A stretch of DNA of 64,000 nucleotides from positions 108,454 through 172,453 of the forward strand of contig NZ_BANT01000014.1 of assembly GCF_000333015.1 (NCBI RefSeq), read 5' to 3'. This stretch comes from Gordonia hirsuta DSM 44140 = NBRC 16056 (GTDB lineage: Bacteria; Actinomycetota; Actinomycetes; Mycobacteriales; Mycobacteriaceae). A program made the position numbers and the translations under genes. Under the pieces are notes generated by a model. That model had not been told where the DNA came from, made no database searches, and was given only the letters and a program-made list of their open reading frames with translations. This document shows positions 5,845 through 39,215 of the stretch, piece by piece (the stretch's first letter is position 1; each line of letters begins with the position of its first letter).

Positions 5845-6318
5845 ATGATCAATCGCATGCGTCTGCTGCTCCTGGCCGCACTGGCCTCCGTCGCCACCCT
5901 GGCAGGACTCACTCTCACCGCACCCGCGGCGCAGGCCCTGCCGGCTGATTTCACACTCACCGAGGAGAACCCGACCGCCGAGGGCCTGAGCCAGGTCGTC
6001 GAGTTCCTGGTTGCCACACCCGCCTCCGATGCCGCCAAGGCCCGGAATCTCGAGGGCGGAATGGACGCGGTGATCGTGCCGAAGACCGTCTACAACCTCG
6101 GCCTGTTCCGCGCGCCGCGCGGCTCCAGCTCGATCACCGAGGTCACCGGGCGCAGCGGTAACTCCGTCCACGCCAAACTGCAGGCGGCGTCGGCAGGACG
6201 TCCGACCGTCAACATGACGATCGAGTTCAAGAAGATCGACGGCAACTGGCGTCTGGCCAACAACTCACTGTGCCAGGGCGTCAAGACCGTCGGACTGAAC
6301 ATCTACTGCAACGTCTGA
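5845..6318 (+). CDS. Secreted MTB12-like small antigen-type protein
   Basis: This 157-residue protein has a cleavable signal peptide (basic start, long hydrophobic stretch, cleavage near AQALPAD at about residue 32). The mature domain contains LEGGMDAV, then a strand-rich region ending in KIDGNWRLANNSLCQG and a C-terminal cysteine (IYCNV). The same pattern (LLEGGA, then WLDGRWKLGNKSVC and PCNVR) occurs in the protein at 63526, so the two are paralogues. The pattern resembles the MTB12 low-molecular-weight antigen C-terminal domain, whose function is unknown. The two cysteines probably form a disulfide. It may be iron-regulated through the box 29 bases upstream. Confidence 0.75.
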   Translation: MINRMRLLLLAALASVATLAGLTLTAPAAQALPADFTLTEENPTAEGLSQVVEFLVATPASDAAKARNLEGGMDAVIVPKTVYNLGLFRAPRGSSSITEVTGRSGNSVHAKLQAASAGRPTVNMTIEFKKIDGNWRLANNSLCQGVKTVGLNIYCNV

Positions 6319-22184: not shown

Positions 22185-23138
22185 TCAGTCGCCGATGGTG
22201 TCGCGTGCGCGCGCCACGATCAACGGATCGGGTTCACCGACCAGTTCGTGGTCCTTGCCGTCGTATTCGTGCAGACTCAGCACGTACCGCATCGCGTTCA
22301 GTCGGGCGCGCTTCTTATCGTTGCTCTTGACCACGGTCCACGGCGCCCAGTCGGTGTCGGTGTGGGCGAACATGTTCTCCTTGGCATCGGAGTAGGAGTT
22401 CCACCGGTCCAGCGATGCCAGGTCCATCGGCGAGAGCTTCCACTGCCGCACCGGATCGATCTGCCGGATCGCGAATCGGGTGCGCTGTTCCAGCGGGCTC
22501 ACCGAGAACCAGAACTTGACCAGGTTGATACCGTCGTCGACCAGCATCTTCTCGAATGCCGGTGCCTGAGCCAGGAACTGCTCGTACTGGTCGGGGGTGC
22601 AGAAGCTCATCACCCGTTCCACGCCGGCCCGGTTGTACCAGGAGCGGTCGAAGAAGACCATCTCCCCGGCCGCGGGCAGGTGCTGGACGTACCGCTGGAA
22701 GTACCATTCGGTCGCTTCGCGCGCGGTCGGCTTCTCCAGCGCGACGGTGTGCGCACCGCGCGGGTTGAGGTGCTCGTTGAAGCGTTTGATGGTGCCGCCC
22801 TTGCCGGCGGCGTCTCGGCCCTCGAACACCAGCAGATGGCGGATGCCGTTCTGCTTGGTCCACTTCTGCAATTTGAGCAGTTCCACCTGCAGCAACCGCT
22901 TCTGCGACTCGTAGTCGGCGCGGTCCATCCGCTCCTCGTACGGATAGTCCTCGCGCCAAGTGTCGACCACATTGCGCTGGGGCAGGGTCAGCAGGATGGG
23001 GTCGTCGTCGTCGTCATCGACGACGACGAAACCGCGGGTGTCGGTCAGGTCGACGATACCCTGCAGGGCCTTGCGCCCGGAGACCTTGCTCAGGTCTTCA
23101 CCGATCTCGACGTTCTTGGGGGAGAGATAGTCGTCCAC
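22185..23138 (-). CDS. ppk2: Polyphosphate kinase 2 family protein
   Basis: This 317-residue kinase transfers phosphate between polyphosphate and nucleotides. Walker A is FEGRDAAGKGGTIKRF, followed by the lid and the second catalytic region VFFDRSWYNRAGVERVM, both diagnostic of PPK2. The length and the sequence around WYFQRYVQHLPAAGE fit class I (NDP to NTP). The N-terminal 75 residues include an acidic DDDDDD stretch, encoded by a GTC/GTCATC repeat near 23010. A different PPK2 of another class lies 4 kb away at 27265. The two flank the phosphatase and groEL2 genes. Confidence 0.93.
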   Translation of the reverse strand: MDDYLSPKNVEIGEDLSKVSGRKALQGIVDLTDTRGFVVVDDDDDDPILLTLPQRNVVDTWREDYPYEERMDRADYESQKRLLQVELLKLQKWTKQNGIRHLLVFEGRDAAGKGGTIKRFNEHLNPRGAHTVALEKPTAREATEWYFQRYVQHLPAAGEMVFFDRSWYNRAGVERVMSFCTPDQYEQFLAQAPAFEKMLVDDGINLVKFWFSVSPLEQRTRFAIRQIDPVRQWKLSPMDLASLDRWNSYSDAKENMFAHTDTDWAPWTVVKSNDKKRARLNAMRYVLSLHEYDGKDHELVGEPDPLIVARARDTIGD

Positions 23139-23676: not shown

Positions 23677-24489
23677 TCAGCCGAGCAGGTATCCGTCGCG
23701 CAGCCGCCCCTGGGCGTCGGCATCGATCCCCAGGCCGCGGGCGAAGTATCCGGTCACGTTCCCGTAGGTCGAGGCCATCTCGTCGAAGGCCGCGTCCAGG
23801 TAGTCGCGCTGCACCCCCAGCAGGGGTCGCAGCACCTCCGGATCGCCGCCGGCGGCCGCGAAAGCGTCGAACACCGGGGTCAGGGCGGGCAGCAGGCGCT
23901 CGTTGGTCTCCAGGTAGTCGCGGTAGACGTCGTCGCGGTCCACTCCCATCAGGCTCAGGAAACTGGCGGCGGCCCAGCCCGTGCGGTCCTTGCCGGTGGT
24001 GCAGTGGAACAGGGCCGGCCCGCGGTCCGCGCCGAGCAATCCCAGGTACAGGCGCCGGTAGGCGCTGCGGGCGCTGTCGGTGCTGACGAACCTGCGGTAC
24101 ACCCCGGCCATCAGATCGGCGGCCTTGCCGCCGGCATCGGCATCGAGGTGCGCGACCACTGCGGGGTCGGCGAACAGCTGGAGGAAATCGGCCGGAATGG
24201 CGTCCCGGTCATCGGCCAGCACGTCCAGCGCGATACCGGCGACGCCGTCGAGGGCCGGATCGGGCAGTGCCTGGCGTTCGGCGGCCGATCGCAGATCGTA
24301 GATGGTGCGCAGCCCCAGCCGGCTCAGCTGCTGCTGCGCCTGGCCGTCTACCGCGCGGAAGTCGGTGGACCGGAACACCCGGCCCGGGCGCACCGGCCTG
24401 CCGTCGGCGCCGGCCCACCCGCCCAGGTCACGCAGATTCGGCAGCGCGGCGATCGGGCTGGGAGCCGGCAGCAGCAGGGCGTCGGTCAT
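23677..24489 (-). CDS. PtpB-like tyrosine/dual-specificity phosphatase (second copy)
   Basis: This 270-residue phosphatase belongs to the Y_phosphatase3 family, which includes secreted mycobacterial PtpB. The P-loop CTTGKDRTG carries the catalytic Cys and Arg (about residue 164). The conserved opening LPNLRDLGGWAGADGR and the general-acid region (VYRDYLETNERLL) are present. There is no signal peptide. The ATG overlaps the stop of the upstream paralogue (ATGA at 24486-24489), so the two are made together. Both share the whole domain plan and clearly arose by tandem duplication. Confidence 0.9.
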   Translation of the reverse strand: MTDALLLPAPSPIAALPNLRDLGGWAGADGRPVRPGRVFRSTDFRAVDGQAQQQLSRLGLRTIYDLRSAAERQALPDPALDGVAGIALDVLADDRDAIPADFLQLFADPAVVAHLDADAGGKAADLMAGVYRRFVSTDSARSAYRRLYLGLLGADRGPALFHCTTGKDRTGWAAASFLSLMGVDRDDVYRDYLETNERLLPALTPVFDAFAAAGGDPEVLRPLLGVQRDYLDAAFDEMASTYGNVTGYFARGLGIDADAQGRLRDGYLLG

Positions 24490-25295
24490 GCCGGATCGAT
24501 CAGGTAGCGGTCGCGCAGTGCCTGCTGTCCGGCGGCATCGATGCCCAGACCGGCGGCGAAGTAGTTCTCCAGAGTCCCCCACCGCTGGGTCAGTGCGGCG
24601 AAGGCCTCGTCCAGGTAGCTCGCGTCCACCCCGAGCACCAGGGTGAGGGCCTCCTTGTCGGCGCCGGCGGCGGTCAGTTTGTCCAGGATCGGGGCCAGCG
24701 CGGGAAGCAGCCGCGCATTGGTCAGCAGATAGTCGGCGTAGACGTCCTCTGCGGACACCCCCATCAGGCTGAGGAACCCGGCGGCCAGCCAGCCCGTGCG
24801 GTCCTTTCCGGTGGTGCAGTGGAATGCCGTCGGCGTCACATCGTCGTCGAGCAGCAGGATGTAGAACTCGCGGTACCGCTTCAGCGCGCTGTCGGAGGTG
24901 ACCAGTTCGCGGTAGGTCTGGATCATCACCTTCCGGGCGAAATCGACCGTGAGGCTCTTGATGGCGGCGGGATCGCTGATGAACTGGGCCGGATTGGCTC
25001 CGCCCATCTCCGGGGAGTCTTCCAGGATGTTGAGCCACAGCGGACCGATCCCGGGGTAGACCGGATCCGGGCACGCGGCCCGTTCTCCGGTGGTGCGCAG
25101 ATCGACGATGGTCGCCAGTCCGAGTTCGCCGACGGCTTTGATGTCCTCGTCGCTGGTGTGCAGGAACTCGGTGGTCCGGTAGATCATCTCGGGCCGGACG
25201 ATCTTGCCGTCGGCGGCCGGCCAGTAACCCAGGTCGCGCCAGTTCGGCAGGGATCGGAACGGACTGGGAGCACCGGGGGTCGCGGTTGCGGTCAT
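24486..25295 (-). CDS. PtpB-like tyrosine/dual-specificity phosphatase (first copy)
   Basis: This 269-residue phosphatase is paralogous to the downstream gene. The start at ATG 25295 (MTATATPGAPSPFRSLPNWR) fits the family; the longer frame to 25334 runs into the terminator palindrome. The catalytic loop is HCTTGKDRTGW, and the opening NWRDLGYWPAADGKIVRPE is conserved. The PtpB family dephosphorylates phosphotyrosine, phosphoserine and phosphoinositides. A host-directed role cannot be inferred here, because no export signal is seen. The gene is translationally coupled to its copy. Confidence 0.9.
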   Translation of the reverse strand: MTATATPGAPSPFRSLPNWRDLGYWPAADGKIVRPEMIYRTTEFLHTSDEDIKAVGELGLATIVDLRTTGERAACPDPVYPGIGPLWLNILEDSPEMGGANPAQFISDPAAIKSLTVDFARKVMIQTYRELVTSDSALKRYREFYILLLDDDVTPTAFHCTTGKDRTGWLAAGFLSLMGVSAEDVYADYLLTNARLLPALAPILDKLTAAGADKEALTLVLGVDASYLDEAFAALTQRWGTLENYFAAGLGIDAAGQQALRDRYLIDPA

Positions 25296-25318
25296 GGGCC
25301 TCACTGTAGGACAACGAC

Positions 25319-25358
25319 GACACGAGCCGGTCACCCGTACGGGTGACCGGCTCGTGTC
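25319..25358. terminator. Perfect 40-bp palindrome, terminator of groEL2
   Basis: The two 20-base halves are exact reverse complements (first half GACACGAGCCGGTCACCCGT), giving an 18-bp stem with a GTAC loop. It lies between the groEL2 stop (25396) and the start of the phosphatase operon (25295), where transcription of groEL2 should end. Confidence 0.8.
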
Positions 25359-27264: not shown

Positions 27265-28155
27265 TCAGTCGCTGAGCTGGGCGATCAACCGCTGGCGATA
27301 GGTGCTCAGATCAGCCCGTTCGGCTGCCGAGACCGCCGGATACTGGGGATCGATGCGCTTGATCGCCTCCAGCAGCACCGCGAAGGTCGCCAGGTGCCCG
27401 GCCCATTTGTGATCGGCAGGGATCACATGCCAGGGCGCGTGCGGGGTGCTGGTGTGGCTCAGCATATCGCCGAAGGCGCGCTGGTAGTCCGGCCACAGAT
27501 CCCGCTCGGCCATATCGGTCTTGGAGAACTTCCAGTTCTTGGTCTCGGTATCGATCCGCGCCAGAAAGCGGCGGGCCTGCTCGTCCGGGGAGACGTTGAG
27601 GAACAGTTTGACCACGACGGTGCCGTTGTCGGTGAGGTACTTCTCCCAGGCGTTGATGTCCTTGTAACGCTGCTTCCAGATGCCCTCGGTCGGCAGCGCC
27701 GACGTCTTAGGCCAGAGCAGTTCCGGATGCACGCGGGTCACCAGAACGTTCTCGTAATGGGAGCGGTTGAAGATGCCGATCCGGCCCAGCGGCGGTACTG
27801 CTTTCTGGTGCCGCCACAGGTAGCCGTGCTCACGCTCTTCCGCCGAGGGCTGTTTGAACGAGTGCACATCCACGCCCTCGGGATTGATCCCGGACATGAC
27901 GTGCTTGATGGTGCCGTCCTTCCCCGCCGCGTCGATCGCCTGCAGCACGATCAGTACCGAGCGATCGCCCTGCGCATACAACTTGTCCTGCAGGTCGAAC
28001 AGCTCGAGCTTGCCCGCCTCCAGTTGTTTGAGGCCGTCCTTCTTGTCCATCCCCCGCGGCCGCGCATCGGCGGCGAAGTCGGCGAGCCGGACGGCGCTCC
28101 CGGCCTCGACCCGCGTCGACTCTGCCAGTTTCTTCCACTTGACTGTGGCCCCCAT
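27265..28155 (-). CDS. Polyphosphate kinase 2 family protein (second type)
   Basis: This 296-residue protein belongs to the PPK2-related family (often class III, AMP/ADP-phosphorylating). Walker A is LQAIDAAGKDGTIKHVM, and the second site is GIFNRSHYENVLVTRV. The HKWAGHLATFAVLLEAIKRI stretch near the C-terminus is typical of this class and absent from the 22185 protein. The N-terminal 40 residues are a basic lead. The gene is separated from the upstream ligase operon by a strong hairpin and has its own promoter region. Confidence 0.92.
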   Translation of the reverse strand: MGATVKWKKLAESTRVEAGSAVRLADFAADARPRGMDKKDGLKQLEAGKLELFDLQDKLYAQGDRSVLIVLQAIDAAGKDGTIKHVMSGINPEGVDVHSFKQPSAEEREHGYLWRHQKAVPPLGRIGIFNRSHYENVLVTRVHPELLWPKTSALPTEGIWKQRYKDINAWEKYLTDNGTVVVKLFLNVSPDEQARRFLARIDTETKNWKFSKTDMAERDLWPDYQRAFGDMLSHTSTPHAPWHVIPADHKWAGHLATFAVLLEAIKRIDPQYPAVSAAERADLSTYRQRLIAQLSD

Positions 28156-28343: not shown

Positions 28344-30014
28344 TCAGCTCGCCGCATCGCGCAGTTGCCTGCGCAGGATCTTTCCGGTGACGGTCTTGGG
28401 CAGTTCGTCGACGATCTCGACGCTGCGCGGATACTTGTAGGCGGCCATCTGCTCCTTGGCGAAGGAGATCAGTTCCTCCGGACCGACCTGCACATCCGGG
28501 TGCAAGGACACGAACGCCTTGACCGTCTCGCCGCGGTACTCGTCGGGCACACCGATCACCGCGGCCTCCCGCACCGCCGGATGGGTGTAGAGCACGTCCT
28601 CGACCTCCCGGGGCCACACCTTGTAGCCGGAAGCGTTGATCATGTCCTTCTTCCGGTCGACGACGTAGTACCAGCCGTCGGTGTCCATGAATCCCACGTC
28701 CCCGGTGTGCAGTTCCCCGCCGGGGATCGAGGAGGCCGTGGCCTCGGGTTTGTTCCAGTAACCCGGAACCACCTGCGGACCGGAGGTGACGAACTCGCCG
28801 ACCTCACCGGGCGGCAGATCGTTCCCGTCGGCACCGACCACCCGCACCATCGTGTTGAACACCGGGACACCGACCGACAGCGCTCCCGAATCCGGGTCGA
28901 CCGGTGCGCGCACCCCCAGCGGCACCGCGTGCGAGGGGGAGTTGGTCTCGGTCAGCCCGTAGATGTTGTGGATGTAGGCACCCAGGGTCTCCTGGAGCCG
29001 GTCCCCGACTGCCGGGGCGATCGGCGCGCCGCCGGAGTAGAGGACCCGCAGGCTGGCGAAGTCCTCCGGAGTCGCCCCCGGCGCCGCTGCCAGCGCACCG
29101 AAGGCGGTGATCGCGCCGATGGTGAACACCGGCCGGTACTCGCGGATCGCATCGAGCATCACCGACGGCTCGAAGCGGTGCGCCAGCACCAGCGGCGACC
29201 GGATCAGCATGGCAGCCATGATGTGACCGACCAGTCCGGTGATGTGGAACAGCGGAGCGATCCCGAGGATCCCTTCGCCGGGCTGCAGCCCCGTCCAGTC
29301 GCGGTAGACCTGCGCGTTGAAGGCGAAGTTCCCGTGGGTGTTCATCGCCCCCTTCGGATCACCGGTGGTTCCCGAGGTGTAGGCGAGCACCGCCACGTCG
29401 TCGGGCCCCAGTGCCGGGTCGGGCAGCTCGGCCCCGGCCTGTTCCCCGGCGGCGGCGATCAGCTCGGCCAGATCCAGGGTTCCGTCGGTGCGGATGCGTT
29501 CCAGCCCGTCGAACAGCCGCGGATCGTTCCGGTCCTGCATGTCCAGCGCCGAGCAGGTGACCACGGTCTGCACCTGGGTCTGTCCCGACTCGACCACCGG
29601 CGCACCGATCTGCGCGTACAGATCGTCCAGTGCCAGCAGCGCGGTCGCGCCGGAGTCCTTGAGCAGGTAGGTCAGCTCGCGTTCCTTGTTCATCGGATTG
29701 ATGGCCACCGCGACGCCACCCAGACGCCAGGCCGCGATCATGCCGATGATGAAGGCCGGGTTGTTCTGCACATACAGTGCCAGCCGGTCACCGGCGCCGA
29801 ATCCGCGTTCGGCGAGTGCAACCGCCAGGGCCCGTGCGGCCCGGTCGACCTCGGCGAAGGTCTGCGAGGTGCCGAAGTACTGCAGGAACTCCGCCTGCGG
29901 CACGGCCTCGACGGCCGCATCGAAGACCGCCAGGGCCGAGGGGTACTCGGCGGTGATGTCAGCCGGCGTCCCCTCGGGGTAGCGGGCCAGCCACGGCCGG
30001 TCTGCGTAGCTCAC
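28344..30014 (-). CDS. AMP-forming acyl-CoA ligase (first paralogue)
   Basis: This 556-residue ANL-superfamily enzyme activates a carboxylic acid with ATP and joins it to CoA. The P-loop is YTSGTTGDPKGAMNTH, the adenine-contact region NIYGLTETNSPSHAVP, the hinge YVVDRKKDMINASGYKV and the catalytic lysine is in TVTGKILRR. The chain-length specificity is not readable. ATG 30014 overlaps the stop of the cyclase gene (four bases), so the two are one operon transcribed from about 31 kb. The gene at 32024, on the other side of the regulator, encodes a full-length paralogue. Confidence 0.92.
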   Translation of the reverse strand: MSYADRPWLARYPEGTPADITAEYPSALAVFDAAVEAVPQAEFLQYFGTSQTFAEVDRAARALAVALAERGFGAGDRLALYVQNNPAFIIGMIAAWRLGGVAVAINPMNKERELTYLLKDSGATALLALDDLYAQIGAPVVESGQTQVQTVVTCSALDMQDRNDPRLFDGLERIRTDGTLDLAELIAAAGEQAGAELPDPALGPDDVAVLAYTSGTTGDPKGAMNTHGNFAFNAQVYRDWTGLQPGEGILGIAPLFHITGLVGHIMAAMLIRSPLVLAHRFEPSVMLDAIREYRPVFTIGAITAFGALAAAPGATPEDFASLRVLYSGGAPIAPAVGDRLQETLGAYIHNIYGLTETNSPSHAVPLGVRAPVDPDSGALSVGVPVFNTMVRVVGADGNDLPPGEVGEFVTSGPQVVPGYWNKPEATASSIPGGELHTGDVGFMDTDGWYYVVDRKKDMINASGYKVWPREVEDVLYTHPAVREAAVIGVPDEYRGETVKAFVSLHPDVQVGPEELISFAKEQMAAYKYPRSVEIVDELPKTVTGKILRRQLRDAAS

Positions 30015-30967
30015 TTGATGACCACCGGGTTCACCGGGGAGCCGGAGGCCCGGTGGATCTTCAGCGGCGCGGCGACGTAGAAGAAGTCGTAGACCCCGTC
30101 CTGGGCGCAGTCGGCCGCGAGCTTCTCCAGGTCGCAGATCTCGGTGAAGGCGACACCCAGATTGCGCATCAGCGCGTTGTGCAGCACCAGCGCGGCCCCG
30201 CTTTCGGGGTCATAGGTGACCTCGTTGGCGATGGTGTCGGTGACCAGGTTCGGAATCTCCATATCGGCGAACCACTGCACCAGTTCCGGCGAGTAGGTCA
30301 GGCCCGGCTCACCGAAGTCGGCGTAGAAGCCGTCGGCATCGACGAAGAACAGCGCCAGGTGGTTGGTGCGCAGGATCAGGATGTCCCGCGGACGCAGCTC
30401 CACACCCTGCGCCTTCGCGCACTCCTGCAGGTCGTTGTGGTCGAAGGACTCCTTGGGCCCGAGTGCGTCCACGCCGCGCCAGCGGGCCAGGTCCAGCAGC
30501 ACGGCACGGCCGGCCACCCCACGTTCGGCGATGGGCTCGACGCTGGCCTTCTCCAGGCCGCCGATGGTGGTCCGTGCGTCGTAGCCGTTCCAGATCTGGC
30601 CGCCGTACCAGACATGGCCGAGGGCGTCGTACTGCGTGGATCCCTGCAGGAATGCCTCGAGTTTGTCATCGGCGTAGTGCAATCCGCCGGGGAAGGCCGG
30701 ACCTTCGCCGCCCTCGTCCCAGTCGGACTCGTCGTAGACCATCTCCTTGGTGGCCGGGCTGCGGCCGGGCCACACCGGGTCGCCGTTGGGATCGCCGATG
30801 AGCCGCTGAAGGGTGAACAGTTCCCCGCGCTTGATCAGCGAAACACCCTTGAGGACCTGTTCGGCGGTCAGATAGTTCAGGCTGCCGACCTCATCGTCGG
30901 CACCCCACTTGCCCCAGTTGCTGGGCGAGTCGGCGAGCAGTTCGGTGAGTTCAGGTACTTCAGTCAT
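30011..30967 (-). CDS. Cyclase-family (kynurenine-formamidase-like) metal hydrolase
   Basis: This 318-residue protein belongs to the cyclase family (PF04199), which uses a divalent metal to hydrolyse amides or cyclic esters; kynurenine formamidase and isatin hydrolase are examples. The typical opening NWGKWGADDEVGSLNYLT and the metal-region TQYDALGHVWYGG (family: D-x-x-x-H) are present. RGVAGRAVLLDLARWRGVDAL is the second conserved block. It is the first gene of a two-gene operon with an acyl-CoA ligase. Ring opening followed by CoA activation would make a sensible catabolic pair. The start is ATG with a strong AAGGAAAGG site. Confidence 0.85.
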   Translation of the reverse strand: MTEVPELTELLADSPSNWGKWGADDEVGSLNYLTAEQVLKGVSLIKRGELFTLQRLIGDPNGDPVWPGRSPATKEMVYDESDWDEGGEGPAFPGGLHYADDKLEAFLQGSTQYDALGHVWYGGQIWNGYDARTTIGGLEKASVEPIAERGVAGRAVLLDLARWRGVDALGPKESFDHNDLQECAKAQGVELRPRDILILRTNHLALFFVDADGFYADFGEPGLTYSPELVQWFADMEIPNLVTDTIANEVTYDPESGAALVLHNALMRNLGVAFTEICDLEKLAADCAQDGVYDFFYVAAPLKIHRASGSPVNPVVIK

Positions 30968-31121
30968 CTCGATGAGCCTTTCCTTGAGATTCGTCGCGCC
31001 GGGGTGAACGAGCGTTTACTCGACGGCTTGGGATGAGAATCACAGAAGAAAGTTTCAACGTCAAGAGTTGAACGAAATCGTTACTACCTGCAGGTATTCG
31101 AACGATGGAGGCCGTATCCAC

Positions 31122-31140
31122 TGTTCAGTTTCACTGAACA
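31122..31140. promoter_or_regulatory. Operator A of the XRE-TetR regulator
   Basis: TGTTCAGT-TTC-ACTGAACA is a perfect 8-bp-arm palindrome overlapping the last codons and stop of the regulator gene. It is 155 bases upstream of the cyclase/ligase operon. Its arms are identical to those at 31960. A weaker repeat (TTCAAC-N7-GTTGAA, 31054-31072) lies closer to the cyclase start. Confidence 0.75.
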
Positions 31141-31970
31141 ACCGCCCCCATCATCGCCAAAGCCAGTGCCGCGTACTCGTCGGCAAGCACATCGGCGGCG
31201 GGCGGAACCTCCCCGTCGAGGCGGAAGGGGACGGCCAGACACAGCGAGACCACCGCCCGCGCGCCCGCCGCCGGCGCCTCGGTACCGAACTCCCCCGCAT
31301 CGACCGCCGCCTGCGCCATATCGACGAAACGCCGCTGAACCCCGCGCCGGATCGCACCGATCCGGCCGCGGTCGGGCTCGTCCAGGCTGCGCAGTTCGGT
31401 CTCGACGATGAAAGCCAGTTCCCGTCGCTGCACCTGGCCGCGCACCAGGACGCGGACCAGTTCGGCGAACGCCCGGCCGGGCGAGTCCGCGGATCCGGCG
31501 GCAGCCTCGATGCGCCAGAGCAGATCGTCGAACCAGGCGTCGATCAAGGCCACCAGAAGCCGCTGCTTGCTGCGGTGATAGCGGTAGATGCCGGCGACGC
31601 TGAGATCCGCGGCGGCCGCGACCAGGCGCATGGTCGCACCGTGGTAGCCCGTATCGGCGAAGACGTCGACGGTGGCGGCGAGCACCGGGTCCAGCGGCAG
31701 CGGCGGATAGGTCCGCCAGTCGGGGCCGCCGACGGGTGTCGGCGCGGCGATAGGCACACTCAGCGGATCCACCAGATCGGCGACCGGAACACCCAGCACC
31801 GCCGAGACCTCGTTGAGCCGCCCCACGGTGACGGCCACCTTGCCGTTCTCGATCGCACTCATGGTGCCGGGACTGACACCGAGTTCGGCCGCCAGCGCGC
31901 GCAGGGTCAACCCGCGCGCCCGGCGGACGGCGCGGACCGTCGTTCCCAGTCCGACGCTTTGTTCAGTCAT
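31131..31970 (-). CDS. XRE-TetR fusion transcriptional regulator
   Basis: This 279-residue regulator has two DNA-binding domains in one chain. Residues about 6-60 are an XRE/Cro helix-turn-helix (LTLRALAAELGVSPGTMSAI). Residues about 95-140 are a TetR_N domain (TMRLVAAAADLSVAGIYRYH), followed by TetR-like ligand-binding helices. The start is ATG 31970; upstream sequence in this frame is not homologous, and the ATG lies inside operator B. A hydrophobic cavity in the C-terminal half suggests sensing of an acyl-CoA or related ligand. Both ends of the gene carry the same palindrome, so autoregulation and control of both flanking transcription units are likely. Confidence 0.88.
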   Translation of the reverse strand: MTEQSVGLGTTVRAVRRARGLTLRALAAELGVSPGTMSAIENGKVAVTVGRLNEVSAVLGVPVADLVDPLSVPIAAPTPVGGPDWRTYPPLPLDPVLAATVDVFADTGYHGATMRLVAAAADLSVAGIYRYHRSKQRLLVALIDAWFDDLLWRIEAAAGSADSPGRAFAELVRVLVRGQVQRRELAFIVETELRSLDEPDRGRIGAIRRGVQRRFVDMAQAAVDAGEFGTEAPAAGARAVVSLCLAVPFRLDGEVPPAADVLADEYAALALAMMGAVVQ

Positions 31971-31978
31971 ACTGAACA
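31960..31978. promoter_or_regulatory. Operator B of the XRE-TetR regulator
   Basis: TGTTCAGT-CAT-ACTGAACA is a perfect palindrome whose arms equal those of operator A. It covers the regulator start codon and lies 46 bases before the divergent ligase gene, so one bound dimer could repress both. Confidence 0.8.
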
Positions 31979-32023
31979 CTCTAGTCGGCCGTCCTGCAGC
32001 CGGCTCGCGCTTAGACTGGCCGG

Positions 32024-33688
32024 GTGACCGGCTACGACGAACGGCCCTGGCTCGCGGCGTATCCCCCGGGACGGCGGCCCCACCTGCGCCGCGAGTTCGC
32101 CACGGCACTCGACCTGTTCGAATCGGCCGCCGCGACCGCACCGGACGGCCCGGCCTTGCACTACTTCGATCAGACTCTGACGTGGTCGCAGGTCGACGCC
32201 GCGGCCGCCGCGTTGGCGGCTCTCCTGGTGGCCCGGGGTTTTGCTCCCGGGGACCGGCTGGCGCTGTGTCTGCAGAACGATCCGGCCTTTGTGATCGGTC
32301 TGGTCGCTGCGTGGAAGGCGGGCGGCACCGCGGCCCCGCTGAGCCCGATGTCGACCACCGGTGAGCTGGCGCGCAGCTTCGGCAACGTGGAACCGTCGGC
32401 GCTGCTGGTCCTTGAGGACCTCTACCTGGACCGGATCCGGCCGGTCCTGGCGACCGGAACCACCTCGGTCCGGGTGGTGGTGACGGTCAGCCCGCTCGAC
32501 GGCCAGCACACCGCCGACCCGCGGATCTTCGCCGGGAGCACCCGTCTGCGGCCCGCCGATACCGTCGATCTGACCGAATTGATCGCCGCCTACACCAGCG
32601 CACCACCCCTGCCGGACTCCCCCGAGCGCCGTGTCGGTCCGTCGGATGTGGCCGTCCTGGCAGCCACGTCCGGGACGTCCGGTCCGTCGAAGGATGCCCA
32701 GATCACCCATGCGAACCTCGCGTTCAGTGCGCAGGTGTACCGAGACTGGACCGGACTGTCGGCCGGAGAACCGATCCTTGCCCTGGCACCGGTCTTTCAT
32801 GTGACCGGCCTGGTCGGCGGGGTGGTCCTGGCCATGCTGACCGCCTCGCCACTGGTGCTGACCCACCGCTTCCACGCCGGTGTGATCGCCGAGGCCACCC
32901 GCCGGCACCGGCCCGTCTTCTGCGCTGCGGTCATCACCGCCTACATCGCCCTGGCCGAGGACCCCGATGTCCGCGCCGCCGATCTGGAGTCGCTGCGGCT
33001 GCGCTACTCCGGCGGAGCGCCGATCGACCCCGAGATCGCCGACCGGCTGGAAGAGCAGCTCGGCGGCTACATTCACAACATCTACGGGCAGACCGAGACC
33101 AGCTCTCCCTCGCATGCGGTGCCACCGGGCACGCGCTCCCCGGTCGACCCCGAATCCGGGGTGATGTCGGTGGGCGTCCCCGTCTTCGACACCGACGTGC
33201 GGGTGGTCGACGACGACGGCAACGACCTGCCGGTCGGCGAGATCGGCGAACTGGTCACCATGGGCCCCCAGGTGATCCCCGGTTATTGGCGTGATCCGAT
33301 CGCCACCGCCGAAACCTTCTCCGGCGGTGCGCTGCACACCGGCGATGTCGGCTTCATGGACGCCGACGGCTGGTTCTACGTCGTCGACCGGAAGAAGGAT
33401 CAGATCAATGCCGCCGGCTACAAGGTCTGGCCGTCGGAGGTCGAACGGGTTCTGGCCACCCATCCCGATATCGAGGAGGCGGCGGTGATCGGGATCCCGG
33501 ACGAATACCGCGGGGAGACGGTGAAGGCCTTCGTCGTCCCGGCAGCCGGCGTCGACCTGGCCCCGGCCGAGGTGATCGCCTACTGCCGGGACCGGCTGGC
33601 GGCCTACAAGTATCCACGCGAAGTGGAGGTCCTCACCGCCCTGCCCCGCACCGCCACCGGCAAGATCCTGCGACGCAAGCTGCGCTGA
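32024..33688 (+). CDS. AMP-forming acyl-CoA ligase (second paralogue)
   Basis: This 554-residue ANL enzyme is closely related along its whole length to the 28344 product (shared ERPWLA-type opening, FHVTGLVG, NIYGQTETSSPSHAVP, YVVDRKKDQINAAGYKVWP, ATGKILRR). The P-loop reads ATSGTSGPSKDAQITH: the usual PKG is SKD, with the lysine kept and the glycine replaced by Asp, so activity or specificity may differ. It starts with GTG, divergent from the regulator. The gene is followed by an 85-base gap before the histidine kinase. Confidence 0.9.
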   Translation: MTGYDERPWLAAYPPGRRPHLRREFATALDLFESAAATAPDGPALHYFDQTLTWSQVDAAAAALAALLVARGFAPGDRLALCLQNDPAFVIGLVAAWKAGGTAAPLSPMSTTGELARSFGNVEPSALLVLEDLYLDRIRPVLATGTTSVRVVVTVSPLDGQHTADPRIFAGSTRLRPADTVDLTELIAAYTSAPPLPDSPERRVGPSDVAVLAATSGTSGPSKDAQITHANLAFSAQVYRDWTGLSAGEPILALAPVFHVTGLVGGVVLAMLTASPLVLTHRFHAGVIAEATRRHRPVFCAAVITAYIALAEDPDVRAADLESLRLRYSGGAPIDPEIADRLEEQLGGYIHNIYGQTETSSPSHAVPPGTRSPVDPESGVMSVGVPVFDTDVRVVDDDGNDLPVGEIGELVTMGPQVIPGYWRDPIATAETFSGGALHTGDVGFMDADGWFYVVDRKKDQINAAGYKVWPSEVERVLATHPDIEEAAVIGIPDEYRGETVKAFVVPAAGVDLAPAEVIAYCRDRLAAYKYPREVEVLTALPRTATGKILRRKLR

Positions 33689-33773: not shown

Positions 33774-35003
33774 ATGACCGGAGAACTCGTCGCGATCGTG
33801 GTGCTGGGTGCGGCACTGGCACTGGTGCTGTTCGTCGTCGCCCTGCGCACCCGCGTGGTGATCTCCACCCCGCACGAACGCGCCGTGCACGACACGCTGG
33901 CGGCGGCCGCGGCCGCCGCCCATCCGCTGCGCGACGGGTTGACCGTCGCCTCGGCCGGCGAAGCCGCCGGTCCGCTGCGCGCACTCACCGGGGCCGAGGG
34001 CGTCGCCCTGTTCGATGCCGACGGCACCCTGCTCGCCCGCGACGGCGAACCCGATATCTGGACCTCGACGGTGCTGACATCGGCCGCTGCCCTGGCCCGC
34101 GAGACCCTCGACAGCCGGCGGCGCGCGCTGACCGACGATCCGGCCGGCAGCGGCGGCGCGGTCCGCAGACTGGTCGCCGCCCCGCTGGTGACCGACGGCG
34201 TCAGTTCCGGGGTGCTGGTGGTGGCGACCATCGGCCGTCCCGGGCCGGGACAGATCGGCGCCATCACCGAAGTCGCCAACTATGCGGCCACCCAGCTGCA
34301 GCTGGCCGAACTGGACGCCTCCCGCGCCCGCCTGGACCGGGCCGAGGTGCTGGCTCTGCGCGCCCAGATCGATCCGCATTTCATCTACAACGCCCTGGGC
34401 ACCATCGCCTCGTTCGTGCGTACCGACCCGGCCCGGGCCCGCGAGCTGATCCTGGACTTCGCCGATTTCACCCGCTATTCGTTCCGCGCCGCCGGTCAGT
34501 ACACCGCGTTGGCCGACGAACTGCGCAACATCGACCGCTACCTGACCCTCGAACGCGCTCGCTTCGGTGCGGGCCTGGACGTGCGCCTGCAGGTGGATCC
34601 GGAGGTCTTGGGGGTGGTGGTGCCGTTCCTGGCGCTGCAACCGCTGGTGGAGAACGCGGTGCGGCACGGTCTGGCCGGCCGGCGCAGCGGACTGATCACC
34701 ATCACCGCTCGCAGCGCCGGGACCGCCTGCGAGATCAGCGTCGAAGACGACGGCGTCGGCATGGACCCGGAGCTGCTGCGGACCGGCGCCATCGACGCGC
34801 TCAGTCCCCCGGACATCCTCGCCAGTGACAGCGACGGTGCACATGTGGGCCTGACCAATGTGGATCAACGCCTGCGCTCGGCCTTCGGGAACGACTACGG
34901 TTTGGTCGTCGAGACGGGCATCGGCGCGGGCACCCGAGTCAGCATGCGGGTGCCGAAGTTCGCCGCGGGGATCCGCGCCGGCCAGGAAGGACCGCAGCGA
35001 TGA
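33774..35003 (+). CDS. LytS-type sensor histidine kinase
   Basis: This 409-residue kinase has one N-terminal membrane segment (residues 4-24), a GAF-like sensory region (about 50-175), and a His_kinase domain whose phospho-acceptor is in AQIDPHFIYNAL (His at about 202). An HATPase domain follows with LVENAVRHG and EDDGVGMDPE. It belongs to the LytS/YehU group that partners LytTR regulators. The response regulator starts in its stop codon. The downstream symporter genes suggest that it senses or controls uptake of small organic acids. Confidence 0.92.
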   Translation: MTGELVAIVVLGAALALVLFVVALRTRVVISTPHERAVHDTLAAAAAAAHPLRDGLTVASAGEAAGPLRALTGAEGVALFDADGTLLARDGEPDIWTSTVLTSAAALARETLDSRRRALTDDPAGSGGAVRRLVAAPLVTDGVSSGVLVVATIGRPGPGQIGAITEVANYAATQLQLAELDASRARLDRAEVLALRAQIDPHFIYNALGTIASFVRTDPARARELILDFADFTRYSFRAAGQYTALADELRNIDRYLTLERARFGAGLDVRLQVDPEVLGVVVPFLALQPLVENAVRHGLAGRRSGLITITARSAGTACEISVEDDGVGMDPELLRTGAIDALSPPDILASDSDGAHVGLTNVDQRLRSAFGNDYGLVVETGIGAGTRVSMRVPKFAAGIRAGQEGPQR

Positions 35004-35800
35004 GCGCAGACCTGCTGCGGGTGCTGGCCGTCGACGACGAGGCACCCGCACTCGATGAGCTGGTCTATCTGCTCGGCGAGCACCGTGCCGTCGGCGACGT
35101 GGTGGCCGCCGGCGATGCGACCGAGGCGCTGCGGCTGTTGTCCGAGCAGGCCGTCGACGCCGCTTTCCTCGACATCTCGATGCCCGGGCTGACCGGGATG
35201 GAGCTGGCCGCGGTCCTGACCCGCTACGCCAGCCCGCCGGCGCTGGTGTTCGTCACCGCCCACGACGACCGCGCCGTCGACGCCTTCGATGTCGGCGCCG
35301 TGGACTATGTGCTCAAACCGCTGCGTGCCGAACGTCTGGCGCAGGCCATCGAACGCGTTCTCGCCGCCCGCGGTGCGGTCTCGCCTCCGCCGGAGGAGAC
35401 CGCCCACGCCGCCGAGATCGGCGCCGCCGAGGTGATTCCGGTCGAACGCGGCGGAGTCACCTCGTTGATCCGCCGCGATTCGATCTCCTGGGTCGAAGCC
35501 GTCGGCGACTACGCCCGCCTGCACAGCGACTCCGGCTCCTATCTGGTGCGCGTGACCCTGTCCACCCTCGAATCACACTGGGCAGCCGCCGGGTTCGCGC
35601 GCGTTCACCGGTCGTATCTGGTCGCCCTGCCGATGGTAACCGGGCTGCGCTCGGCGGGAACGGCCACCAAGGTGCTGGTGCGGGCCAACGGCCAGACCCC
35701 CGAAGTGGAGTTGCCGGTGAGCCGGCGCCAGGTCCGTGAACTCAAAGATCGTCTGGTGCGCGATCCGCTGCGGTCGTTCCGCTCGGCCCGGACCGATTAG
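35000..35800 (+). CDS. LytTR-family response regulator
   Basis: This 266-residue regulator has an N-terminal receiver with the phosphorylated Asp in AFLDISMPGLTG (about residue 58) and the Lys in VLKPLRAERL. The C-terminal LytTR DNA-binding domain (about 150-250) is seen in SWVEAVGDYARLH and FARVHRSYLVAL. LytTR regulators of this kind control acid transporters (for example YpdB and BtsR). The gene overlaps the kinase by four bases and is followed 15 bases later by a small membrane protein and a symporter, its likely targets. Confidence 0.92.
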   Translation: MSADLLRVLAVDDEAPALDELVYLLGEHRAVGDVVAAGDATEALRLLSEQAVDAAFLDISMPGLTGMELAAVLTRYASPPALVFVTAHDDRAVDAFDVGAVDYVLKPLRAERLAQAIERVLAARGAVSPPPEETAHAAEIGAAEVIPVERGGVTSLIRRDSISWVEAVGDYARLHSDSGSYLVRVTLSTLESHWAAAGFARVHRSYLVALPMVTGLRSAGTATKVLVRANGQTPEVELPVSRRQVRELKDRLVRDPLRSFRSARTD

Positions 35801-35815
35801 ACGGGATCTTCTGCG

Positions 35816-36199
35816 ATGTCCCCGGACTCTCCGCGCCGCGAGCGCGTCGTCCTGTCACAGCGGCGCGGTGCCCGGCCGGTCCGCACCCGCGCCGAAGTGG
35901 CCGAGCAGACCCGGTTCGGGGAACACCTGGTGCGCAGCCTGGTCCGGGCCCAGCTCGGGCTCGCCCTGCGCATCGGGCTGGCCGTGGTGGTGGTCCTGCT
36001 GGCGATCCCCGTAGCGGGATCGGCGATCGACGGTTTCGCCTCGGCGACCCTGTTCGGCATCACCCTCAACTGGATCGTGCTGGCACTGCTGCCCTATCCG
36101 GTGCTGTACCTGGCCGGACGGATCTACATCCGGCTGGCCGAACAGGCCGAACGTGACTTCATAAAGCTCATGGACGACGAGGAGCAGCGCCGATGCTGA
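35816..36199 (+). CDS. Small membrane partner of the symporter
   Basis: This 127-residue protein has a basic N-terminus of about 45 residues, two hydrophobic segments (about 48-75 and 80-103) and a charged C-terminus (EQAERDFIKLMDDEEQ). It resembles the DUF485-type proteins encoded just before sodium:solute symporters, but only loosely. Its stop overlaps the next start by seven bases. A role in assembling or modulating the symporter is inferred from context. Confidence 0.72.
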   Translation: MSPDSPRRERVVLSQRRGARPVRTRAEVAEQTRFGEHLVRSLVRAQLGLALRIGLAVVVVLLAIPVAGSAIDGFASATLFGITLNWIVLALLPYPVLYLAGRIYIRLAEQAERDFIKLMDDEEQRRC

Positions 36200-37926
36200 C
36201 CGGCACCGGGGCTGCACTGGTGATCGCCGCCGTCGTGCTGGCCACCGTCGGCACCGTGGCGATCGGCGCCTACGGCGGGCGCGGGGCCCGGTCCACCTCG
36301 GACTTCCTGGTCGCCTCCCGCAGCATCGGCGCCAGTTGGAATGCCGCGGCCATCGCCGGGGAATACCTGTCGGCCGCCTCGTTTCTGGGCGTGGCCGGTC
36401 TGGTCGCCAAATACGGGGCCGACGCCCTCTGGTACCCGATCGGGTTCACCGCCGGATACCTGGCGTTGCTGCTGTTCGTCGCCGCCCCGCTGCGACGTTC
36501 GGGGGCCTACACGGTGCCCGATTTCGCCGAGTTCCGGCTCGACTCGCTGCGGGCCCGGCGGGTGGCGATGGTCGTGGTGGTGCTGGTCTGCGTGCTCTAT
36601 CTGGTGCCGCAGTTGCAGGGCGCCGGTTTGACGCTGAACATCCTGCTGGGACTGCCGGGCTGGGTCGGCGTCGTCGTCGTCGGCACCGCGTTGATCGTCA
36701 ACGTGGTCGGCGGCGGTATGCGTTCGGTGACCTTCGCCCAGGCCGTCCAGTACTGGCTCAAACTCACCGCCATCGCCGTACCCGCACTGGTGGCCGTCCT
36801 CCACTTCACCGGGCAGCCGGCCGATCTGGGTGAGCCGCTGCCCGCCCGGGTACCGGTGGCCACCACCATCTCGGTGCCCACCGAGGTCTCGGTGACGGTC
36901 ACCGACCCGGTCGGTGTGCACGTCTCGGGAACCGTCGACGGCGCACCGGTTCGCGCTGCCCCACTGGCACCGGGCACGGTGGTCGTGGGCGAGGGCTCGA
37001 CGCTGACGCTGGCCGCCGGTGCAGCCACTCCGGTGGTCTCCGACGCCCCGCAGACCGGGGCGGCCTGGTCCCGCTCGGGCGGCGGACTCGGCGGCGGCCA
37101 CCCGCTGTATCAGGTGCTGTCGCTGATGATCGCCACCTTCCTGGGTGCGCTCGGTCTGCCGCATGTTCTGGTCCGCTTCTACACCAACCGCACCGGCGCC
37201 GATGCCCGGCGGACCGCGCTGACGGTGATCGTGCTGCTGGCCGCGTTCTATCTGTTTCCCACGGTGCTGGGCGTGCTGTCCCGGATCTACGTCCCGCAGG
37301 TGCTGGCCACCGGAACCTCCGATGCCGCCGTGCTGCTGATCCCGACGGCCCTGGCCGGTGGGCTGGGCGGGGAACTGCTGGCCGCCCTGGTCGCCGCGGG
37401 TGCGATCGCCGCGTTCCTGGCGACCTCCTCGGGACTGCTCATCAGCATCGCGGGCGTGGTGTCCACCGATCTGCTCACCGCCGGGGTACGCAGCTTCCGG
37501 ATCTGCGCGCTGATCGGCGGACTGATCCCCATCGGGCTGGCGCTGGCCGCCGGCACCCTGGAGCTGTCGCGGTCGGTCGGGCTGGTCTTCGCCGTCTCCG
37601 CAGCGACCCTGTGCCCGCTGCTGGTGCTGGGCATCTGGTGGCGCGGATTGACCGCCACGGGGGCGATCACCGGGATGGCAGTCGGCGCGTTCACCTCCGG
37701 TTTCGCCGTCCTGGCCGGGGCCTTCTGGCTCTCCGGTGACGGCTGGGCCACCGCGATCGTCACCTTTCCGGCCGCGATCACCGTGCCGCTCACCTTCGCC
37801 ACCATGATCACGGTGTCGCTACTGACTCGCCGCACCCTGCGCAGCGATGTGGCCACCGTCTTCGCCCGCATGCACGTTCCCGAACGCTTCGGCCTGGTCC
37901 TCGAGCGCACGCCGCCGGGAGATTGA
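36193..37926 (+). CDS. Sodium:solute symporter (SSS family)
   Basis: This 577-residue transporter has about 13 membrane segments and the family pattern near the start (SDFLVASRSIGASWNAAAIA, EYLSAASFLG), which contains the first sodium-site residues. It also has GLPHVLVRFYTN in the middle. These are characteristic of acetate/monocarboxylate members. A Val/Thr-rich extracytoplasmic loop (about residues 206-300) is larger than usual and predicted to be strand-rich. It is the last gene of the LytS/LytTR operon. A related symporter with a different small partner is encoded at 39212. Confidence 0.88.
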   Translation: MLTGTGAALVIAAVVLATVGTVAIGAYGGRGARSTSDFLVASRSIGASWNAAAIAGEYLSAASFLGVAGLVAKYGADALWYPIGFTAGYLALLLFVAAPLRRSGAYTVPDFAEFRLDSLRARRVAMVVVVLVCVLYLVPQLQGAGLTLNILLGLPGWVGVVVVGTALIVNVVGGGMRSVTFAQAVQYWLKLTAIAVPALVAVLHFTGQPADLGEPLPARVPVATTISVPTEVSVTVTDPVGVHVSGTVDGAPVRAAPLAPGTVVVGEGSTLTLAAGAATPVVSDAPQTGAAWSRSGGGLGGGHPLYQVLSLMIATFLGALGLPHVLVRFYTNRTGADARRTALTVIVLLAAFYLFPTVLGVLSRIYVPQVLATGTSDAAVLLIPTALAGGLGGELLAALVAAGAIAAFLATSSGLLISIAGVVSTDLLTAGVRSFRICALIGGLIPIGLALAAGTLELSRSVGLVFAVSAATLCPLLVLGIWWRGLTATGAITGMAVGAFTSGFAVLAGAFWLSGDGWATAIVTFPAAITVPLTFATMITVSLLTRRTLRSDVATVFARMHVPERFGLVLERTPPGD

Positions 37927-37982
37927 GACCGGACCGCGCGCCGCACCGATGGGTCGCCGGATCGACGGGCAAGATACTTCCC

Positions 37983-38597
37983 ATGCCAGATCGCCCCCGT
38001 CTGACCGCCGAGGACATCCACGATGCCGTCTTCCACACACCACCGTTCGGCAAGCGCGGCTACAACGAGGATCAGGTCGACGAGTTCCTCGACGCCCTCG
38101 AAGCGAAGTTCACCGACCCGGGGTCACCGCAGCTGGCCTGGTTGACTCCCGAGGCGGTGTCCGGCCGCACTTTCGGGACCCCGCCGATCGGCAAGCGCGG
38201 CTACAACAAAGACGACGTCGACACGCTGTTGCGTCTGGCCGCCGCCGATCTGGCCCGACTGCTGCACGCGCAGCCCGCCCGGGACGCGTTGCCGATGACA
38301 CCACCGCCGCCGGGTGCAGCGATGGCCGCGGAGATCGCCCGTGTGCACTTCGCCAAGCCGCCGTTCCTCCGGCGCGGATACCGCGAGACCCAGGTCGACG
38401 ACTACCTCGACGCCTTGGCCGCCAAGTTCCGTGATCCGCAGGACCCGGCCGTGGCCTGGCTGACCCCCGAGGCCCTCGGTGAGGCGAGTTTCGCTCCGGC
38501 CCCGCGCGGTTCGGCCGGTTACCGGATCGACGACGTCGACCGGTTCCTGGTGCACTGCCGCGAGGAACTCACCCGCCTCCTGCGTGATCTGCCCTGA
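37983..38597 (+). CDS. Four-repeat DivIVA-domain protein
   Basis: This 204-residue protein is made of four DivIVA-like motifs of about 35-50 residues: PPFGKRGYNEDQVDEFLD, PPIGKRGYNKDDVDTLLR, PPFLRRGYRETQVDDYLD and APRGSAGYRIDDVDRFLV. Repeats 1 and 3, and 2 and 4, match best, pointing to duplication of a two-repeat unit. Unlike true DivIVA/Wag31 there is no long coiled coil. This fits the small actinobacterial DivIVA-repeat family. The chosen ATG at 37983 begins the first repeat; an in-frame start at 37923 would overlap the symporter. The function is unknown, possibly binding of curved membrane or of Wag31. Confidence 0.85.
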   Translation: MPDRPRLTAEDIHDAVFHTPPFGKRGYNEDQVDEFLDALEAKFTDPGSPQLAWLTPEAVSGRTFGTPPIGKRGYNKDDVDTLLRLAAADLARLLHAQPARDALPMTPPPPGAAMAAEIARVHFAKPPFLRRGYRETQVDDYLDALAAKFRDPQDPAVAWLTPEALGEASFAPAPRGSAGYRIDDVDRFLVHCREELTRLLRDLP

Positions 38598-38720
38598 CCG
38601 TTCACCGGCCCAGAGCCTGAGCGAACGACCCGCGCGGACGCGGGAGGCGCGCCCGCCCCGTCACCGTTTGTCGGTGCCGACGAACCGTTCATCGCACAGC
38701 ATCCAGTCCTCGTCGCCTGG

Positions 38721-38744
38721 CTCACAGATTCCATTGTCTGTGAG
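38721..38744. promoter_or_regulatory. Inverted repeat upstream of the actP operon
   Basis: CTCACAGA-N8-TCTGTGAG is a perfect inverted repeat 64 bases before the start of the DUF485 gene. It is a likely operator for the DUF485-actP operon. It does not match the GlxR/CRP spacing (TGTGA-N6-TCACA), and the binding protein is unknown. Confidence 0.5.
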
Positions 38745-38807
38745 TTAGGTCTCCGTGGAGAGTTCTCGGCAAGGCCGCGTCTCGCGGCATCGCACCGAGG
38801 AGGTCCC

Positions 38808-39215
38808 GTGTCCGCCAACCTAGATCACCCGGCGATGAAACTGTCGTCGCCGTCGGCCGAGGAGTTCATCGCGGCTCAGCAGAGCCCCGAGTATCAGCGC
38901 CTGCGCCACACGCTGCGCGGCTTCGTCTTCCCGATGACCGCGTTCTTCCTGGCCTGGTACCTGCTGTACCTGTGCCTCGGCGTCTTCGCCGACGGCTTCA
39001 TGGGCACCCCCGTGTGGGGCAACATCAACGTCGGCCTGATCCTGGGCCTGCTGCAGTTCGTGACCACCTTCGCCATCACCGGGGCCTATATCTACTTCGC
39101 CAATCACCGGCTCGATCCGCAGGCGCAGGCCGTCCGGGACGGCTTCACCGACGGTGAATACGCCCGCGAGGCCGCGGTCCTCAGCGAAAGCACCCCGAAG
39201 GTAGGCCAGCTGTGA
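38808..39215 (+). CDS. DUF485 membrane protein
   Basis: This 135-residue protein of the DUF485 (YjcH-like) family has a short soluble N-terminus, the family motif SPEYQRLRHTLRGFVFPMTA and two membrane segments (residues 46-68 and 80-104). Such proteins are encoded with, and probably assist, ActP-type symporters. It starts with GTG after GGAGG. Its stop overlaps the symporter start, showing coupling. Confidence 0.88.
   Translation: MSANLDHPAMKLSSPSAEEFIAAQQSPEYQRLRHTLRGFVFPMTAFFLAWYLLYLCLGVFADGFMGTPVWGNINVGLILGLLQFVTTFAITGAYIYFANHRLDPQAQAVRDGFTDGEYAREAAVLSESTPKVGQL

Follow-up and report, generated by a model that had tools for sequence, protein, structure and literature searches.

A 64,000-nucleotide stretch of the genome of Gordonia hirsuta DSM 44140 (contig NZ_BANT01000014.1, positions 108,454 to 172,453; hereafter the window) carries the gene of a regulator in which an XRE and a TetR part are fused, together with the genes of two acyl-coenzyme A (acyl-CoA) ligases and of a cyclase-family protein. 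Ligase B is divergent from the regulator, and the cyclase and ligase A genes, which overlap by 4 bases, presumably form one operon. A first-pass annotation, made from the letters of the window, had described these genes as a symmetric module with the same palindrome at both ends of the regulator gene. Its gene coordinates and domain calls were correct (Pfam, sequence), as was the distance of 838 bp between the palindromes, and its grouping of the XRE-TetR regulator, the pair of identical operators, both ligases and the cyclase into a module is supported by the comparisons described below. To that annotation the present analysis adds the positions of the regulator's start and stop codons within the palindromes, a second kind of palindrome, and TAnnnT boxes before the regulator and before ligase B. 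The features of the locus are the following.

31131..31970, minus strand: regulator, XRE-TetR fusion of 279 aa; ATG at 31968-31970, stop codon at 31131-31133
28344..30014, minus strand: ligase A (acyl-CoA ligase), AMP-binding by Pfam; shares 4 bases with the end of the cyclase gene
30011..30967, minus strand: cyclase-family protein (PF04199 by Pfam), 318 aa
32024..33688, plus strand: ligase B (acyl-CoA ligase), AMP-binding by Pfam; GTG start, divergent from the regulator
31960..31978: putative operator 1 (op1), TGTTCAGT-ATG-ACTGAACA, its centre being the regulator start codon
31122..31140: putative operator 2 (op2), TGTTCAGT-GAA-ACTGAACA, containing the regulator stop codon (31131-31133)
31004..31019, minus strand: candidate operator 3 (op3), TetR-type palindrome GTAAACGCTCGTTCAC, with the inner AACGCTCGTT at 31007-31016
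31978..31983, minus strand: predicted -10 box of the regulator, TAGAGT, 7 bp before the ATG
32012..32017, plus strand: predicted -10 box of ligase B, TAGACT, 6 bp before the GTG
31059..31064, minus strand: predicted -35 box of the cyclase-ligase A operon, TTGACG, 17 bp before the -10; TTGAC at the same place in relatives
31036..31041, minus strand: predicted -10 box of the cyclase-ligase A operon, GATTCT, from the sequence

The regulator comprises an XRE domain (residues 12-66), a TetR_N domain (97-142) and a TetR_C_24 domain (168-274), with a linker at about residues 68-94 that has no predicted secondary structure. The presence of two DNA-binding domains, already proposed by the first-pass annotation, is borne out by Pfam scores of 48.4 bits for HTH_3 (cut-off 23), 55.8 for TetR_N (cut-off 24) and 50 for TetR_C_24 (PF17932; cut-off 26.4). 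The AlphaFold2 model (mean predicted local distance difference test score, pLDDT, 89.7) places helices at residues 8-67 and 95-273 and none in the linker, where pLDDT falls below 50 at residues 71-78. Among the sources listed, related proteins are mostly annotated just as 'TetR family'.

The XRE-type palindromes and the regulator promoter

Relatives of the locus came from two sources. Named records gave 34 loci, of which 17 have full-length relatives of the regulator (L008-L024, L008 being the locus of Gordonia aichiensis). A further 60 stretches surround high-scoring matches in which the XRE part is included, and 9 of these were dropped as repeats of named loci. Of 301 family genomes, 199 have a match to the regulator protein at E <=1e-20; many of those listed cover just the TetR part. 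The final set comprises 69 loci, window included. The cyclase is present in 30 of them, and 39 lack it at the score used. We refer to the loci with the gene order of the window as canonical modules (n=22: the window and 21 relatives, L008-L023 and L072-L076), while the other eight cyclase loci (L024, L090, L091, L093, L096, L101, L105 and L126) have other gene orders. The loci of the set are related, so that counts drawn from it are not independent.

The palindrome TGTTCAGT-N3-ACTGAACA occurs at 31122-31140 and at 31960-31978 without a single mismatch, and the two copies differ only in the 3-base spacer, in full agreement with the first-pass annotation. When up to 3 mismatches were allowed these two remained the only sites in the window (0.04 expected), and none of 100 shuffles had two or more. 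The genome-wide search that the same annotation had called for retrieved these two exact copies and no others in the 3.49 Mb of the own genome. The exact 19-mer was ruled out as a signature of the family: counting the own genome, just 4 of the 401 family genomes have it. What is conserved is a shorter unit, GTTCAG-N5-CTGAAC, whose half-site centres are 11 bp apart (about one turn). Throughout the 69 loci we have found 53 exact sites with a spacer of five bases and, for each other spacer between 0 and 40, at most two; controls with six shuffled half-sites gave at most one site each, whatever the spacer.

Close relatives that retain the regulator had been expected to keep the palindromes as well, and they do so in all 22 canonical modules, with at most 2 mismatches in op1 (0 in 11 modules, 1 in 8 and 2 in 3, out of 12 positions) and at most 1 in op2 (0 in 21 modules and 1 in the remaining one). 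On average 20.8 of the 22 modules agree in the half-site columns of op1 and 21.9 in those of op2, against 12.5 and 10.4 in the flanks; flanks and most spacer columns drift while the half-sites are almost invariant. Random 160-bp windows of the same 22 loci yielded no site with up to one mismatch in 200 draws. The regulator start codon is at the same place in the op1 spacer in 22 of 22 modules. Op2 contains the stop codon in 15 of them, 14 in one register and the window in another, and begins 1 to 53 bases past the stop in the other 7. The third codon of the regulator is GAA in every one of the 22 modules, compared with 64 GAA and 236 GAG in the inner part of the genes, and its fixation despite the preference for GAG points to a constraint on the DNA and not on the protein only.

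A TAnnnT motif ends 7 bp before the start codon in all 22 modules and at none of 12 shifted registers, and since this is where the -10 box of a transcript beginning at the start codon would be, the regulator mRNA is probably leaderless. In the available part of the 5'-end maps of Mycobacterium smegmatis, ANNNT lies at -6 to -13 and 24% of transcripts are leaderless (PMC6448022). As a separate observation, in L012 the predicted -10 region is present as a tandem copy immediately ahead of op1 (at about 5950-6001, upstream of the regulator).

Which of the two heads reads this palindrome? We infer that GTTCAG-N5-CTGAAC is tied to the XRE head, from its recurrence, from inverted loci and from covariation with the recognition helix. 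The palindrome accompanies regulators that have other neighbour genes. In three loci with an inverted cyclase operon (L091, L093 and L096) there is a one-mismatch site at the cyclase promoter and an exact site at the regulator start. Finally, regulators with Ala in the XRE recognition helix (SAIE) have a T at the corresponding half-site base in 0 of 48 sites, and those with Gln (SQIE) in 6 of 6, a count from which the 15 of 69 loci without a site at up to one mismatch were dropped; two of these dropped loci (L122 and L127, both Gln) have the T at 2 mismatches. Within the own genome, GTTCAG-N5-CTGAAC is found exactly at the two op1 and op2 positions only and with one mismatch at 12 further places (2 for the backwards control). 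In the 8 of these 12 that were examined as loci, no common pathway was apparent by eye in the genes that contain or adjoin the sites, and a regulon spread over the genome was rejected.

The TetR-type palindrome at the cyclase promoter

A second kind of palindrome, CCGAnCGnnCGnTCGG, distinct from op1 and op2, is found in relatives at the cyclase promoter, just past the predicted -10. Its core rises above local background (p <=0.05) in 27 of the 30 cyclase loci, the misses being L072, L126 and the window. Among the 39 cyclase-free loci the relatives' core is perfect upstream of the regulator in 15 and reaches p <=0.05 in 20, and an XRE-type site (up to one mismatch) occurs together with a TetR core of at least 21 of 24 in 21. 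The op3 site is also framed in many loci by outward-facing half-sites of the XRE type, CTGAAC and GTTCAG (up to one mismatch each): of the 30 cyclase loci, 24 have the left one, 20 the right one and 20 both, where about one locus per side would be expected by chance (eight spacings allowed, equal base frequencies). The left half-site of L090, L101 and L105 reads CTAAAC, the same as in their op2. In the window the core is GTAAACGCTCGTTCAC, without half-sites, and has diverged to contain AACGnnCGTT, a motif that appears once in the 64 kb, at op3; of the 30 cyclase promoters, those of L072 and L073 are the only others that have it.

A way to understand the role of each site is to compare gene orders. 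The five loci in which regulator and cyclase are divergent have a single XRE-type site each, and the TetR-type core is above background in four of them (L126 misses). For this reason op2 seems to be the partner of the TetR-type site at the cyclase promoter, and op1 looks like an additional site, serving the promoter of the regulator itself and the divergent ligase B. The module is thus not simply the symmetric one of the first-pass annotation. In the simplest layout, regulator and target are separated by a single palindrome of each type, XRE and TetR; it is found in L024, L090, L101 and L105 and also beside many cyclase-free relatives. In 21 of the 39 cyclase-free loci a gene from one and the same set of homologues is divergent from the regulator; the only member scanned, that of L087, encodes an acyl-CoA dehydrogenase according to Pfam, and behind it lie an APH-type phosphotransferase gene and an SDR gene.

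A proposed local switch and its alternatives

Taken together, these observations suggest a local catabolic switch, in which the regulator would repress its own gene, ligase B and the cyclase-ligase A operon through two palindromes and be released by a CoA thioester (we put the probability at about 0.64). The regulator is likely to be the off-switch for the breakdown of an acid. The XRE head would bind op1 and op2, and the TetR head op3, blocking escape from the cyclase promoter. Op1 would cover the first base of the leaderless mRNA, so that an XRE head bound there would shut the regulator's own promoter. The ligases would make the CoA thioester, and the TetR core would bind acyl-CoA and let go of op3. 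Acyl-CoA is suggested as the ligand because the fold neighbours of the TetR part in structure comparisons include the acyl-CoA-sensing repressors PfmR, AibR (with isovaleryl-CoA), FadR (also acyl-CoA-bound), KstR2 and BkaR; several members of the TetR family with TetR_C_24 bind an acyl-CoA. As for its origin, the locus of the window may be a rearranged version within a family of two-code regulators: from an ancestral layout with a palindrome of each type separating regulator and target, the regulator would have been turned around, op2 and op3 staying with the cyclase and op1 being gained with ligase B.

Several observations weigh against this reading. The op3 core of the window departs from the consensus of its relatives (18 of 24, p 0.29), and L072 and L126 miss it too (p 0.17 and 0.13). 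The weights of the core were chosen after the sites had been seen, and the background windows of the 39 cyclase-free loci could contain the site itself. Close flanking XRE half-sites are absent at op3 from the window, L072, L073, L023, L024 and L126. Fifteen of the 69 regulators have no start-proximal site at up to one mismatch, and one of these dropped loci, L100 (Ala), has a T at 2 mismatches. The covariation between Ala or Gln and C or T amounts to one change of each trait, a single independent pair on the tree, and is therefore not a replicated test. The TetR part has its top fold match in an uncharacterised TetR protein (3him), and DarR, a receptor of c-di-AMP, ranks close to the acyl-CoA-sensing group, so that the ligand may be of another class. 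XRE heads can activate as well as repress. Lastly, op1 lies 25-27, 33-35, 44 or 68 bp from the -10 box of ligase B where that box was found, and in 5 of the 22 modules no TAGACT was found before ligase B.

A wider generalization, which we advance tentatively and for which the chances are somewhat below even, is that of an actinobacterial regulator family with a two-code operator. The XRE head would read GTTCAG-N5-CTGAAC and the TetR head CCGAnCGnnCGnTCGG about 100 bp off; in many cyclase loci the protein would read a composite site too, the TetR palindrome with outward XRE half-sites around it, so that four helix-turn-helix motifs would clamp one stretch or bridge two. In the canonical modules the XRE operator would lie across the start codon and usually the stop codon of the regulator.

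The two sites 838 bp apart had also suggested looping to the first-pass annotation. A dimer or tetramer might bridge op1 and op2, or the XRE-type and TetR-type palindromes about 100 bp apart, and repress through the resulting DNA loop. Two unlike DNA-binding domains joined by some 27 residues that are poorly ordered in the model would suit such a bridge, as would the spacing of the paired sites, which is 97-142 bp between op2 and op3 in the 26 cyclase loci scored and 55-133 bp in the 21 cyclase-free relatives, 16 of them at 85-101 bp. These spacings have no clear helical phase: the vector length stays at or below 0.40 at periods of 9.5-12 bp in the 26 cyclase loci and, while it reaches up to 0.68 (11 bp) in the 21 cyclase-free relatives, these are phylogenetically clustered. 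The distance between op1 and op2 itself drifts from 829 to 900 bp across modules. Spacing thus does not support looping, which we regard as rather unlikely.

It is unlikely too that the regulator works in a dual mode, repressing its own promoter from op1 but activating ligase B. The site is just upstream of the expected ligase B -35, which is a usual place for an activator, and in 16 of the 22 modules the predicted -10 is 25-44 bp from op1. The variable distance and the five modules without TAGACT, mentioned above, speak against it, and regulators with a TetR core of this fold are mostly repressors.

Another explanation would be that only the XRE head binds DNA, the TetR part serving as ligand sensor and dimeriser and op3 being a relic or the site of another TetR protein. 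The degenerate op3 of the window, devoid of half-sites, fits this well, and the own genome does encode a TetR-only relative 43% identical to the TetR part of the regulator. We still consider it unlikely, given that 27 of the 30 cyclase loci have the TetR-type core in the same position, that 20 of the 39 cyclase-free relatives have it nearby, and that TetR_N scores well above its Pfam cut-off with its helices conserved across the regulator alignment. Their placement exactly at the start and stop of the regulator gene could also suggest that the palindromes are no operators but flanking repeats or the ends of a mobile element. This idea is already contradicted by their differing spacers, by their preservation through about 50% protein divergence amid variable flanks and by the single sites beside relatives with other neighbour genes.

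Enzymes, neighbouring genes and related regulators

The two ligases are indeed paralogues, as had been proposed; both have AMP-binding and C-terminal domains (Pfam), and over 553 columns they share 58% identity. All 22 canonical modules retain one gene resembling ligase A and one resembling ligase B (by best match), which suggests an old duplication. Acyl-CoA ligases of the ANL type have a phosphate-binding loop with the consensus SGTTGxPKG, which ligase A matches and ligase B of the window does not; in the other 21 canonical modules the loop of ligase B has PKG in 17 and PKA or PKS in 4. Ligase B of the window, which deviates at positions that most of these 21 retain, may be less active. Both ligases have the C-terminal TGK motif. 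Regulator, cyclase and ligase occur together in 30 of 30 cyclase loci and the second ligase in 25 (the 22 canonical modules plus L091, L093 and L096, where both best match ligase A); the five loci in which regulator and cyclase are divergent have one ligase of this kind.

The cyclase belongs to PF04199 (55.8 bits, cut-off 23.1); the ring-opening hydrolase of the first-pass annotation is a family inference only. The metal motif of PF04199 is HxGTHxDxxxH, and at its place the cyclase reads QGSTQYDALGH and its nearest solved relative, 5ibz, QGSTQWDALSH (E 4e-52, query residues 15-318). This homologue is labelled uncharacterised, so it gives no reaction. Within a phylum sample of 198 genomes only the own one has the cyclase at E <=1e-60; close homologues, among the best 120 of 2819 matches, are also present in Nocardioides. 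After the module genes, the most widespread neighbour is an acyl-CoA dehydrogenase, in just 6 of the 30 cyclase loci, so the substrate was not identified from gene context. Other subsets have a thiolase with an acyl-CoA dehydrogenase (4 of 30) or an SDR gene (4 of 30), one member of each having been scanned; clusters antisense to module genes were set aside by eye in this ranking.

Beyond the module, 33774-40903 holds genes for a histidine kinase, a LytTR response regulator, an SSF symporter, a DUF485 protein and a second symporter-like protein (the last by eye), possibly a carboxylate uptake system. On the other side, two polyphosphate kinase 2 (PPK2) genes (22185-23138 and 27265-28155) flank a groEL-like gene (assigned by eye), and 23677-25334 contains a Y_phosphatase3 gene (24486-25334) followed by what appears by eye to be a second copy of the same family.

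The regulator shares its sensor TetR fold and its link to acyl-CoA enzymes with the acyl-CoA-responsive repressors PfmR of Thermus thermophilus, AibR, Bacillus FadR, KstR2 and BkaR. These are not known to have more than one DNA-binding head, and the regulator differs from them in its extra XRE head and second operator type. That head (residues 7-68) matches ClgR, the XRE regulator of clp genes (3f51, E 1e-5), which unlike the regulator has no TetR part and whose operator is reportedly GTTCGC-N5-GCG. TTHA0973 (PaaR) of T. thermophilus presumably lacks an XRE head. In the available part of its description the consensus is AACnAACGTTnGTT or CNAACGNNCGTTNG (PMC6651687), the core of which equals the inner AACGnnCGTT of op3 in the window, L072 and L073; the likeness of the proteins is known only at the level of the TetR fold. 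AcuR of Rhodobacter sphaeroides is, as far as the available part of its report goes, a TetR repressor heading a leaderless catabolic operon with an operator that overlaps its own promoter (PMC3017554). In these traits it resembles our regulator; it differs in having one operator, which precedes the start codon instead of having it at its centre, and that part of the report describes no XRE head.

No description of an XRE-TetR regulator was found among the matches listed in the open-access PubMed Central literature. The component parts are of known kinds, and the arrangement with two heads and two codes is, as far as could be checked, new. Comparison alone suffices to separate the two reading codes and to give each head one of them provisionally, so that the purpose of the second head becomes directly testable. 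With the operator code, targets of this family could be predicted in Gordonia, Rhodococcus, Dietzia, Pseudonocardia and others. The code also marks a gene module conserved across those genera.

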